This document shows, in pieces, positions 5,036 to 40,649 of a stretch of DNA of 64,000 bases. Position 1 is the first letter of the stretch; each line of letters begins with the position of its first letter. The DNA is from Candidatus Nanopelagicus abundans (lineage in GTDB: Bacteria > Actinomycetota > Actinomycetes > Nanopelagicales > Nanopelagicaceae): positions 434,001-498,000 of the forward strand of contig NZ_CP016779.1 in assembly GCF_002288305.1 (NCBI RefSeq), in the 5' to 3' direction. Under the pieces are notes generated by a model. That model was not told where the DNA came from. It did no database searches and was given only the letters and a program-made list of their open reading frames with translations. A program made the translations under genes and the position numbers.

Positions 5036-6240
5036 TACTTAGCACCTTTATAGTTTGGATTTTCCCAGATGATTGTGCCACCCATACCAAGACCGATACA
5101 CATTGTTGTAATGCCGTATCTAACCTCTGGGTGATCAGTAAAGGCGTTTGCTAAGTTAAGAATTAATCTCACTCCAGATGAAGCAAGTGGATGCCCAACT
5201 GCAATTGCCCCGCCATAGATATTTACTCGCTTATCATCATCGGCAATTCCAAAATGATCTAGAAATGAAAGTACTTGAATTGCAAATGCTTCATTGACTT
5301 CAAATAAACCAATATCAGAAATATCTAAGCCAGCTTTTTTAAGTGCTTTAATCGTGCTAGGCACTGGGCCGTATCCCATAATTTCTGGCTCAACTCCGGC
5401 AAATGCAAATGAAACTAATTTGGCTTTAATTGGCAGGTTTAATTCTTTAGCTTTACTCTCTGATGCCAAAATTGCAGCTGTTGCACCATCATTTAAACCA
5501 GCAGCATTTCCAGCTGTTACTCGACCAGCTGCGCGAAATGGTGTCTTAAGAGCGCCTAATGCTTCTAAAGTTGTTTGCGGCCTAGGTGGTTCATCAACTG
5601 TTGCCACACCCCAACCTAACTCAACAGTTCTAGTTGCAACTGGAATTAAATCAGGTTGAATCTTATTTGCAGCATATGCTGCAGCAGTTTTTTGCTGGGA
5701 GGCAAGAGCGTATTTATCTGCTCGATCTTTAGTTAGGTGTGGAAACTTGTCATGTAATCTTTCAGCAGTTGCGCCCATTTGCAGCGCATCAGTTTCAACA
5801 ATTCTCTCGGCTAAGTATCTTGGATTTGGATCCATGCCATCACCCATCGGATGATTTCCCATATGTTCAACACCGCCTGCAATTGCTAAATCATAAGCAC
5901 CCATATTTATGCCACCAGCAATTGTTGTTACTGCTGTTAACGCACCGGCACACCATCGATCAATTGAATATCCAGGTACTGATTTTGGAATACCAGCAAG
6001 GATTGAAACAGATCGACCAATATTCATTCCTTGATCACCAGTTTGGGTAGCGGCGGCAATTGCAACATCATCAATTTGATCAACTGGCAGATTTGGATTT
6101 CGCTCAAGTAGGCCGCGAAGGCAGCGAACCATAATGTCATCAGCTCTAGTGCCAGCATATAAAGAGCCAGCTTTACCAAATGGAGTTCTAACCGCATCTA
6201 CTAAAACCACATTGGTCTTTGCTGTAGCGCTTTTAATCAT
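5035..6240 (-). CDS. fadA: Acetyl-CoA C-acyltransferase (thiolase)
   Basis: The product performs thiolytic cleavage of 3-ketoacyl-CoA, the last step of beta-oxidation. It has 401 residues. The three catalytic elements are visible: the nucleophilic cysteine in DRWCAGALTAV, the histidine in GHPLASSGVRL, and the second cysteine in TMCIGLGMGGTIIWE. The ATG at 6240 follows a good AGGAG ribosome-binding site 7 nt upstream. It is first in a two-gene operon with fadB. A small inverted repeat lies just upstream at 6261-6280. Confidence 0.95.
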   Translation of the reverse strand: MIKSATAKTNVVLVDAVRTPFGKAGSLYAGTRADDIMVRCLRGLLERNPNLPVDQIDDVAIAAATQTGDQGMNIGRSVSILAGIPKSVPGYSIDRWCAGALTAVTTIAGGINMGAYDLAIAGGVEHMGNHPMGDGMDPNPRYLAERIVETDALQMGATAERLHDKFPHLTKDRADKYALASQQKTAAAYAANKIQPDLIPVATRTVELGWGVATVDEPPRPQTTLEALGALKTPFRAAGRVTAGNAAGLNDGATAAILASESKAKELNLPIKAKLVSFAFAGVEPEIMGYGPVPSTIKALKKAGLDISDIGLFEVNEAFAIQVLSFLDHFGIADDDKRVNIYGGAIAVGHPLASSGVRLILNLANAFTDHPEVRYGITTMCIGLGMGGTIIWENPNYKGAK

Positions 6241-6260
6241 TAAAGACTCCTAGCTAGATA

Positions 6261-37572: not shown

Positions 37573-38661
37573 ATGAATAATTCACCTCTAAATTCTAGGC
37601 ATTTGCAGTTAAATGCAAAGATGGCAGATTTTGGTGGCTGGCTTATGCCAATTGAGTATCCAGATACTGGAGTAATTGCGGAGTACTCTGCAGTTCGCCA
37701 GCAAGTAGGAGTATTTGATGTTTCCCATCTTGGCAAAATTTCTGTTAAGGGAGATGGTGCACTTAATTTTTTAAATCAAATGTTAACCAATGATTTAAAT
37801 AGAATTACAGCCGGACAAGCCCAATACTCTTTACTATGTAATGAAGATGGTGGAGTAGTTGATGATCTTATTGTTTATCGAAACTCAGATACTGATCTAT
37901 TTTTAGTACCAAATGCATCTAATACCAGTTCGGTCTTTAAAATATTAAATGATCAAGCACCTAGTTCAGTTGAAGTTAAGAATCTGCATAATGAGTATGG
38001 AGTGATCGCGCTCCAAGGACCTAAGTCATCACAAGTTCTAGAGATACTTGGAATTAAAAGCTCAATTAATTACATGGAGTTTATAAATACCACAATAGAT
38101 AATTGCTCAGTTATTTTGTGTAGAACTGGCTACACCGGTGAGTTCGGCTTTGAAATCATTCCAACATGGGCGCAGACTGAAAAAGTTTGGGACAGGTTGA
38201 TCACAGTTATTAAGCAACTTAATGGCACGCCATGTGGCTTAGGAGCGCGAGATATTCTGCGAACCGAAATGGGATATCCATTACATGGACATGAACTCTC
38301 ACTTGAGATATCACCAGTGCAAGCATCGGCAAGTTGGGCAATTGGTTGGCAAAAAGAATCCTTCAGGGGCAAGCAAACATTGCTTGAGCAGAAGCAAGTT
38401 GGAACTAAATTAAAGTTAAGAGCGATTTTGGCAACTGATCGCGGAATTCCACGAAAAGACATGAAGGTTAAGGATATAACTGGCAAAGTTATTGGGCAGG
38501 TAACTAGTGGAACATTTTCCCCTGGCCTTAAAAAAGGTATTGGACTGGCATTAATTAATCCTGCAATTGTTAAAGGAGATCAGGTTCTCATTGATATTAG
38601 GGGAGCTGATTCATTATTTAATGTTGTAGAGCTACCTTTTGTGCCATCAAAGGTTCGTTAA
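37573..38661 (+). CDS. gcvT: Glycine cleavage system T protein (aminomethyltransferase)
   Basis: A 362-residue folate enzyme of glycine decarboxylation. FGGWLMPIEYPDTGVIAEY and GVFDVSHLGKISVKG are N-terminal family blocks. YTGEFGFEII and GLGARDILRTEMGYPLHGHE are central signatures, and the OB-like C-terminal domain is present. The start is supported by TAGGTT 6 nt upstream. gcvH and gcvP are not in this window. The stop is 5 nt from the convergent stop of the 56-residue protein. Confidence 0.93.
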   Translation: MNNSPLNSRHLQLNAKMADFGGWLMPIEYPDTGVIAEYSAVRQQVGVFDVSHLGKISVKGDGALNFLNQMLTNDLNRITAGQAQYSLLCNEDGGVVDDLIVYRNSDTDLFLVPNASNTSSVFKILNDQAPSSVEVKNLHNEYGVIALQGPKSSQVLEILGIKSSINYMEFINTTIDNCSVILCRTGYTGEFGFEIIPTWAQTEKVWDRLITVIKQLNGTPCGLGARDILRTEMGYPLHGHELSLEISPVQASASWAIGWQKESFRGKQTLLEQKQVGTKLKLRAILATDRGIPRKDMKVKDITGKVIGQVTSGTFSPGLKKGIGLALINPAIVKGDQVLIDIRGADSLFNVVELPFVPSKVR

Positions 38662-38666
38662 TAGAT

Positions 38667-38837
38667 TTAGTAGTGCCCGCCCCAGTAACGCCAGCCATAT
38701 TCTGCAAGGCTAGTACCAGCAAAAAGTATTGCTACATGCAGAACTAACGCAAATACTTTTGAAATCGCTAGTTTAATTCTTGAAGTTGTTTTAGTCATGA
38801 CGATTATCGGTTCTTGCTCAAACATAGTTTTTTGCAT
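38667..38837 (-). CDS. 56-residue single-pass membrane protein, second gene of the cobalamin-riboswitch operon
   Basis: A short gene with an excellent AGGAG site that overlaps the stop of the preceding gene, so it is coupled to it. The first 26 residues are polar and basic. Residues about 27-44 form one membrane helix (VFALVLHVAILFAGTSLA). The tail EYGWRYWGGHY is aromatic with Gly and a terminal His-Tyr. It has no His-rich cobalt motif like CbtB. Being under a cobalamin riboswitch, it may help cobalamin or cobalt uptake. I do not recognise a family. Confidence 0.75.
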   Translation of the reverse strand: MQKTMFEQEPIIVMTKTTSRIKLAISKVFALVLHVAILFAGTSLAEYGWRYWGGHY

Positions 38838-38845
38838 TTTTACTC

Positions 38846-39373
38846 CTAATCAGGGAACTTTACATCGCCGTTGGTAACAAAAACAAACGCCAAGCCATCA
38901 CCTGGTTTCATGGCTAACTCAGCAACACCAACTTGTGCCCAAGCCCATTTTCCATTTAAATCAAAAGGGTTTGGAATTACTTGCCATCTTTTTTCAAGTA
39001 CTGCCCAGTATGCAAAAGAAGCTGGCATCTCTTTACACTCTTCAATGTAATCTTCATGCCCCTTTACACCGATTGGTTCAGTCGGCTTAGGTAAATTATT
39101 TAATCGACAAATTACGTTATTTCCGTATTTATTAGTTCCTTCTAATTTAAAGTTTGCATTTTGCATCAATTCTAAAGCTGTAATTTCACCAGTTACTGTC
39201 AAGCATTTTTTAAAGTCAGCATTAGAAGAATCTAAAGAGCCATAATCAATAAGCACATTTACACAATTTGCTCGAGTTTGAGTAGACCAAAGGGTGACAC
39301 CACTGATAACTAGAACTACGACAAATATGGCAGAAAAAAATTTTCTTGCCTCAGTAGATGTATCGCTAAACAT
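38846..39373 (-). CDS. Secreted/anchored transcobalamin-like (DUF4430-type) protein under a cobalamin riboswitch
   Basis: A 175-residue protein. Residues 11-30 form an uncleaved-looking signal anchor, and the rest is extracytoplasmic. Four cysteines (37, 57, 89, 113) could make two disulfides. The segments ALELMQNANFKLEGTNKYG and VICRLNNLPKP, FAYWAVLEKRW, then VGVAELAMKPGDGLAFVF follow the pattern of the DUF4430 domain, which resembles the C-terminal lid of transcobalamin and intrinsic factor. With the riboswitch upstream, a cobalamin-capture role is a strong inference. GAGGGG precedes the ATG and can be masked in a hairpin. Confidence 0.8.
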   Translation of the reverse strand: MFSDTSTEARKFFSAIFVVVLVISGVTLWSTQTRANCVNVLIDYGSLDSSNADFKKCLTVTGEITALELMQNANFKLEGTNKYGNNVICRLNNLPKPTEPIGVKGHEDYIEECKEMPASFAYWAVLEKRWQVIPNPFDLNGKWAWAQVGVAELAMKPGDGLAFVFVTNGDVKFPD

Positions 39374-39379
39374 AGAGCC

Positions 39380-39394
39380 CCTCTAGATAAGAGG
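39380..39394 (-). promoter_or_regulatory. Shine-Dalgarno-sequestering hairpin of the riboswitch
   Basis: On the minus strand CCTCT-N5-AGAGG forms a hairpin whose 3' arm contains the GAGG of the ribosome-binding site, 6 nt before the ATG at 39373. This suggests translational control. Confidence 0.55.
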
Positions 39395-39577
39395 TTTACG
39401 AAAGCATTGAAACTCACCAAGTGAGAATCCGTGCCCCGCAATCCTCGACGGTTGGATAAAAATGTGTGGGTAATCCGACTTGAAAAAATCTTCTCACGGT
39501 TGCGGGACAGCGCCGGATTTACACCGACTTCCCCCACCTAAATCTCTTCTTCAATATCAAGTTGTGGATACATTCTG
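39395..39577 (-). ncRNA. Cobalamin (adenosylcobalamin-type) riboswitch
   Basis: The minus strand carries the conserved core: GGGGGAAGTCGGTGTAAATC (39536-39517), then CTGTCCCGCAACCGTGA, the B12-box region, followed by AGTCGGATTACCCACAC. AGGTGGG and CCCACAC can close the four-way junction. The loop TCCCGCAA (39507-39500) can kiss TTGCGGG (39441-39435), the loop of a stem CCGT/ACGG: the L5-L13 contact of B12 switches. A CTCAC/GTGAG hairpin (39413-39425) follows, then the ribosome-site hairpin. CATAAT at 39584-39589 is a likely -10. The ends are approximate. Confidence 0.9.
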
Positions 39578-39647
39578 ATACCAATTATGGCTTAAGGCAA
39601 CTAACCACGCTATTGCAGGGTTTGACTGTGGCAGTTATTGTTCAGAT

Positions 39648-40649
39648 ATGGAACATAGGCGGCTTGGCAGTTCGGGAATGTATGTCTCAGAAATAACCTA
39701 CGGTAACTGGCTTACACATGGCTCTCAGGTTGAGGCCGATGCTGCAATTAAATGTGTAAGAACTGCATTGGATTTAGGAATAACAACTCTAGATACTGCC
39801 GATATGTATGCCGGAACTCGCGCAGAGACTGTTTTAGGTAAAGCCCTTAAAGGTGTTCGCCGTGAGTCCTATGAACTACTAACTAAAACCTATTGGCCAA
39901 CCGGCACTGGAAAAAATGATCGTGGTCTTTCCCGCAAACATATTATGGAATCCTGTAACGCCTCCCTAAAACGACTTAAAACTGATTATGTGGATCTTTA
40001 TCAAGCTCATCGATTTGATGTTGAAACACCACTTGAGGAAACACTCGGAGCATTTGATGATCTAATCAGAAGTGGCAAAGTTTTATATATTGGTTTTTCC
40101 GAATGGAATGCTCAGCAGATCGCAGCAGCGCTAAAGATTCAAGATGAAAAAGGTTACTACCGCTTTATATCTAGCCAACCTCAATATTCAATGCTTTGGC
40201 GAGTAATTGAGGGTGAAGTTGTGCCACTGTGTAAAAATGAAGGCATAAGCCAAATCGTTTGGTCACCAATTGCGCAGGGAGTCTTAACTGGTAAATATCT
40301 TCCTGGCCAGAAAGCGCCAGCAGGTTCTCGTGCTACTGATAAAAAAGGTGGCGCAAATATGATTTCTCCCTTTATGACAGAACCAATTTTAAATGCTGTG
40401 CAAAAACTACAACCAATTGCTAAGAAAGTAGATTTAACTCTTGCCCAACTAGCAATTGCTTGGGTTCTACAAAATCCAAATCTTTCAAGTGCAATTATTG
40501 GTGCTACTAAGCCTGCACAAATTAAGGAAAACATTAAAGCTGCAGGGGTAAAATTGGATAAATCAATTATAGATGAGATCGACCTCGTAATCGGTGGCGT
40601 AGTTGAAAGAGATCCTGCTAAAAATGTAAGCCCAAATCCTAGGGCCTAG
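39648..40649 (+). CDS. Aldo/keto reductase
   Basis: A 333-residue NADPH-dependent oxidoreductase of the potassium-channel-beta/YghZ group. The catalytic tetrad is visible: Asp and Tyr in TLDTADMYAGTRAE, Lys in LLTKTYWPTG, His in YQAHRFD. WSPIAQGVLTGKY and SAIIGATKPAQI are cofactor regions. TATTGT lies 6 nt before the ATG. It is divergent from the riboswitch operon, and the spacer holds both promoters. The substrate is unknown. Confidence 0.93.
   Translation: MEHRRLGSSGMYVSEITYGNWLTHGSQVEADAAIKCVRTALDLGITTLDTADMYAGTRAETVLGKALKGVRRESYELLTKTYWPTGTGKNDRGLSRKHIMESCNASLKRLKTDYVDLYQAHRFDVETPLEETLGAFDDLIRSGKVLYIGFSEWNAQQIAAALKIQDEKGYYRFISSQPQYSMLWRVIEGEVVPLCKNEGISQIVWSPIAQGVLTGKYLPGQKAPAGSRATDKKGGANMISPFMTEPILNAVQKLQPIAKKVDLTLAQLAIAWVLQNPNLSSAIIGATKPAQIKENIKAAGVKLDKSIIDEIDLVIGGVVERDPAKNVSPNPRA

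Follow-up and report, generated by a model that had tools for sequence, protein, structure and literature searches.

The closest known counterparts of the locus described here are the SCO2322/SCO2321 ECF operons (NF040672 and NF053823) and the Micrococcales loci in which a homologue of the same capture protein is followed by a fused ECF transporter. Many of these loci carry a cobalamin riboswitch, and their first gene encodes an extracytoplasmic protein that is predicted to resemble the lid of transcobalamin. We find the same characteristics in a two-gene operon of Candidatus Nanopelagicus abundans, whose products are here called P1 and P2, but this operon is without EcfT, EcfA, and EcfS, and has P2 instead. 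The SCO2322-type ECF operon occupies the same slot in family relatives, although the elements of the lid fold follow the canonical order in P1 and look circularly permuted in SCO2322. In two members of the family this riboswitch-led slot holds BtuFCD; in contrast to that system, P1 is not a Peripla_BP_2 protein and the genome that carries P1 and P2 has no FecCD permease. BtuM and solitary BioY allow vitamin uptake without an ECF module, as we propose for P1 and P2, and BtuM binds cobalt via a cysteine (PMC6072759); many P2 proteins have Cys or His as their last residue. However, BtuM has its relatives among the ECF S components, whereas P1 and P2 are single-pass proteins unrelated to it in sequence. 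The Bacteroides surface lipoproteins BtuG and BtuH (PMC6143338, PMC13398666) are also B12 capture proteins encoded in B12 transport loci, but they differ from P1 in fold and have the outer-membrane protein BtuB as their partner.

We consider it probable that this operon, under repression by B12, serves the organism for acquiring corrinoids, and that it is a reduced locus which took the place of an ECF importer at the same position. The broader statement, that P1 and P2 serve B12 acquisition in some way, is slightly more secure still. What is new here is a putative ECF-type B12 capture protein that has been kept without the ECF module, together with a new small partner. Few freshwater bacteria are as abundant as the acI-B actinobacteria, and we regard this locus as the leading candidate for B12 acquisition in them. 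Cobalamin biosynthesis is missing from acI genomes (PMC5301498, PMC5574706). For strains of acI A and C, an ECF module preceded by cobalamin riboswitches has been reported (PMC5301498), while acI-B (Nanopelagicus) is a predicted adenosylcobalamin auxotroph and a cobalamin transporter has been named only for acI-A (PMC5574706).

The window (the whole stretch of 64,000 nucleotides that was analyzed) comes from a genome assembled as one contig of 1,161,863 bases and 99.92% complete. P1 (38846-39373, minus strand) is an open reading frame of 175 amino acids with an ATG start, encoding an N-terminal anchor and an extracytoplasmic domain. It is followed after a gap of 8 nt by P2 (38667-38837, minus strand), an open reading frame of 56 amino acids with one membrane helix. 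The operon consists of these two genes only. On one side it is bounded by the convergent gcvT (37573-38661, plus strand), which is the neighbor whether the slot holds P1+P2, ECF, or BtuFCD, and on the other by the divergent gene of an aldo-keto reductase (39648-40649, plus strand); both are flank markers outside the operon. The preliminary description of this DNA, made from the letters alone, had reported an operon without further genes and without an adjoining importer component, containing an anchored 175-residue protein with four Cys and a coupled 56-residue single-helix protein. All of this was borne out.

A cobalamin riboswitch on the minus strand had likewise been recognized, at 39395-39577. 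Its presence is confirmed by an Infernal-type scan (cmscan), which matched RF00174 over the full length of the model (1-189) with 38.0 bits against a gathering threshold of 31.5 (E = 4.6e-6), but its position shifts slightly, to 39448-39590. The leader is kept in 12 other P1+P2 loci, where it is strongly conserved from the aptamer to the P1 start codon. Between aptamer and start codon lies a probable expression platform (39374-39447, minus strand), delimited by sequence and single-sequence folds. It comprises a TTGCGGG segment with pairing complementarity to CCCGCAA in the aptamer, a long hairpin, and a short hairpin (39380-39394, minus strand) that covers the ribosome-binding sequence of P1, AGAGG. 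The short hairpin is retained across 13 leaders, in the window leader via a shifted register or G-U pairs. A hairpin that covers the ribosome-binding site suggests that control is translational.

P1 has a hydrophobic anchor at residues 12-30. Searches of P1 against Pfam returned no family up to E = 10, DUF4430 included; NCBIfam gave no match, the SCO2322 family NF040672 included, and a P1 profile found nothing among PDB sequences. Since there was no sequence-level family match, the DUF4430 label required a structure model. An AlphaFold2 model built from 73 sequences has a mean pLDDT of 81, mostly above 90 over residues 36-175. The 18 best PDB matches of this model in Foldseek are human, rat, and bovine transcobalamin, intrinsic factor, and haptocorrin, together with 3u7z, a small Ruminococcus protein deposited as putative metal-binding. 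These matches have probabilities of 0.99-1.00 and modest E values (4e-3 to 5e-2), with TM scores normalized by target of 0.60-0.73 against isolated domains. An independent, poorer model of an Arthrobacter homologue of P1 gave the same Foldseek answer. As modeled, the P1 ectodomain is a transcobalamin beta/DUF4430-type lid by fold, and not a member of the Pfam family model. The earlier suggestion of a DUF4430/transcobalamin-lid protein thus holds for the fold and fails for the Pfam DUF4430 model. The predicted fold is shared with the beta domains of transcobalamin, intrinsic factor, and haptocorrin and with 3u7z at 9-15% identity; unlike the transcobalamin group, neither P1 nor its operon includes an alpha-alpha toroid partner domain. 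In PDB entry 5np4, the beta domain of human transcobalamin stands on its own and has cyanocobalamin bound, so a lone lid domain is able to hold B12.

P2 has a conserved C-terminal W-R-x-W-G motif followed by His-Tyr, His, or Cys at its end, and its helix contains the conserved residues His34, Gly41, and Thr42. Its topology is probably N-in/C-out, judging from hydropathy and charge. No family in Pfam or NCBIfam matches P2, CbtB included, and it has no detectable relatives outside the genus. We also considered P2 as a fragment of SCO2322, on the basis of a WRYWG/YRYWG motif in both, and rejected this, as the SCO2322 motif aligns better with FAYW of P1.

P1 and P2 co-occur in all 14 genomes of one clade of the genus, and neither ever occurs alone. 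In the window and in each of the 12 genomes that have both flanks on the fetched contig, gcvT is on one side of the pair and the aldo-keto reductase gene on the other. Pairwise comparisons give dN/dS values of 0.05-0.11 (P1) and 0-0.40 (P2). Because the pair is conserved in 14 genomes and its dN/dS is low, we regard P1 and P2 as real genes under purifying selection. The same slot has other occupants elsewhere. Six family relatives have a riboswitch-led SCO2322-family secreted protein, EcfT, a double EcfA, and EcfS; one of the six (G010) belongs to the same genus, and its operon spans two contigs. Two further relatives have a riboswitch-led BtuF-BtuC-BtuD operon (L145 6510-9400 and L148 860-3796), which means that the type of importer has been exchanged at a single locus. 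In a tree of flanking genes, the genomes with P1 and P2 form one clade with a support of 1.000, and the ECF form lies outside it; the simplest reading is that the import module was replaced once by P1 and P2. Three different import modules, the putative P1+P2 module among them, have been exchanged at one riboswitch-controlled slot.

Relatives of the P1 domain are found elsewhere in Actinobacteria. Named genomes yielded 80 loci, all from Micrococcales (Arthrobacter, Pseudarthrobacter, Microbacterium, Agromyces, Leifsonia, and Glaciibacter). In every one of them an ECF transporter, usually a single fused T-A-A-S protein, comes directly after the P1 homologue. In most of them metH adjoins the ECF gene. 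Because resemblance to an ECF-linked protein had been the criterion for picking these loci, we took another sample across the class, in which EcfT, EcfA, and EcfS adjoin the P1-domain gene in 18 of 20 loci. When 19 of the class-wide loci were scanned with Rfam, at least 11 showed a cobalamin riboswitch on the same strand, upstream of the P1-domain gene or its operon (L206, L207, L209, L211, L212, L215, L217, L218, L221, L222, and L223). The Rfam cobalamin riboswitch was not found in nine Micrococcales P1-ECF loci, and riboswitch control is therefore not universal in the P1 family. The preliminary description had tied its reading to homologues that stay within B12 regulation; those sampled keep to B12 contexts, with ECF neighbors and often cobalamin riboswitches. 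The lid fold of animal B12 carriers is thereby linked to widespread, mostly uncharacterized actinobacterial B12-import loci. In L222 (1520-2639), a riboswitch and a lone P1-domain protein are followed by dapA-like and other unrelated genes, with no ECF gene within the 9 kb fetched. L215 contains an extra P1-domain copy with its own cobalamin riboswitch (5490-6250) near the ECF operon.

We find that the complete genomes with P1 and P2 depend on B12. NrdJ is an adenosylcobalamin-dependent ribonucleotide reductase, and it is present in the three complete genomes with the pair (G000, the window genome, G004, and G013), with 1554-1566 bits to NF005122. In G004 and G013, NrdJ is the only large subunit of a ribonucleotide reductase, and metH is present. 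B12 uptake should thus be essential for DNA synthesis in two of the three complete genomes. The window genome has nrdE besides NrdJ (G000:C1:405923); no metH match was found there, while the metH B12-binding domain is present in G004 and G013. One of its two cobalamin riboswitches lies in the window. The other precedes nrdH-nrdI-nrdE-nrdF (G000:C1:250000-253811; L033 3796-7811), which encode a B12-independent class Ib ribonucleotide reductase. The window organism probably reserves its class Ib enzyme for times of B12 scarcity; the large subunit of this class has been lost from G004 and G013.

Targeted profile searches were made for known importers in the same three complete genomes only, and it is to these that both the absence of importers and the dependence on B12 refer. 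None of them has a FecCD/BtuC permease (the control G030 was positive), a B12-type EcfS or a true EcfT (positive controls were found for both), or an ABC_membrane_2 protein (PF06472; BacA/Rv1819c-type). A weak CbiQ match at G000:831581 was rejected as EcfT, the protein being RodA-like, and a weak B12-binding match at G000:27993 was set aside as a 478-aa frame of another family that by eye is not corrinoid-related. Since these genomes need B12 and the searched importer families are absent, B12 must enter the cell by another route.

We propose that P1, anchored at the outer face of the membrane, would capture B12 with its lid-like domain. P2 is most likely the obligate membrane partner of P1. 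Placed with its helix across the membrane and the conserved aromatic C terminus outside, it would hold or present P1 or the ligand. The next step would be transfer of B12 to a translocator, which would be either a permease from a different family whose gene lies elsewhere in the genome or, with lower probability, P1 and P2 assembled together. At high levels of adenosylcobalamin, the riboswitch would turn the operon off.

To our knowledge, two single-pass proteins form no recognized importer, and part of the system is therefore missing from this account. There is about an even chance that P1 and P2 feed a permease of a known kind encoded elsewhere, such as an ordinary ABC importer, a CbtA-like or BtuM-like protein, or a divergent ECF S component. 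The relatives of P1 are normally found beside a permease, the genome searches covered four permease profiles only, and the acI lineage retains a solitary BioY (PMC5301498). Such a permease would not be co-regulated, however, as the other cobalamin riboswitch of the genome controls nrdHIEF. The preliminary description had likewise pointed to a permease encoded elsewhere; in the three complete genomes this is now excluded for BtuC/FecCD, B12-type ECF T or S, and ABC_membrane_2 proteins. We think it unlikely that P1 and P2 are instead a complete importer of a new transporter class, with a path formed by P1/P2 oligomers or by P2 alone and with no ECF or ABC module. The two proteins have one short helix each and no ATPase, there is no precedent for a molecule the size of B12, and P2 evolves faster than P1, with His34 being Asn in one homologue. 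Nevertheless, several observations agree with a complete importer: the searched B12 importers are absent from three complete, B12-dependent genomes, P1 and P2 are strictly paired, and the helix residues of P2 and its outer W-R-x-W are conserved. Solitary BtuM and BioY also show that small B12 and biotin carriers can lack an ECF module (PMC6072759). If true, a two-protein importer has evolved in place of ECF in one of the most abundant lineages of freshwater bacteria.

Other explanations would remove B12 import from the locus altogether. The ECF genes are gone from the slot and the genome is highly reduced, as might be expected if the operon were what decay has left of the former ECF operon, in which the riboswitch and a vestigial binding protein were still expressed but B12 was no longer imported. 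This is very improbable, given that P1 (by its low dN/dS) and P2 are conserved across 14 genomes, that the three complete ones still need B12, and that the ECF operon of relatives starts with the SCO2322 type and not with P1, which is then not simply a leftover. Also doubtful, though less so than decay, is a locus for handling cobalt or a corrinoid precursor, or for keeping B12 stored or shielded on the cell surface. Cobalt transporters, too, are under the control of B12 riboswitches, 3u7z carries its putative metal-binding annotation, and the His or Cys terminus of many P2 proteins would suit such a role. Yet acI genomes are without cobalamin biosynthesis (PMC5301498, PMC5574706), so that cobalt uptake alone would be useless, and the relatives of P1 sit with an ECF S component shared across the family, beside metH. 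Our preferred reading remains B12 acquisition by P1 and P2.

The relationship between P1 and SCO2322 was compared by halves. The C-terminal half of P1 aligns with the N-terminal half of SCO2322 (hhalign, E = 1.1e-5), and the N-terminal half of P1 with the C-terminal half of SCO2322 (E = 5e-3); none of 60 column shuffles reaches the score in either case. Same-order pairings of the halves are at chance, with 23 and 11 of 60 shuffles reaching the score. This is suggestive of SCO2322 (NF040672; e.g., L144 6108-6863, minus strand) having the lid fold of P1 in circularly permuted form, as distant kin. We found no paper on SCO2322 in the literature, nor one on DUF4430 with a cobalamin riboswitch. In L149 (4263-5989, minus strand), a SCO2321 alpha-toroid-like protein is encoded beside a SCO2322 lid-like protein, upstream of ECF genes, an arrangement in which both halves of transcobalamin appear as separate bacterial proteins.
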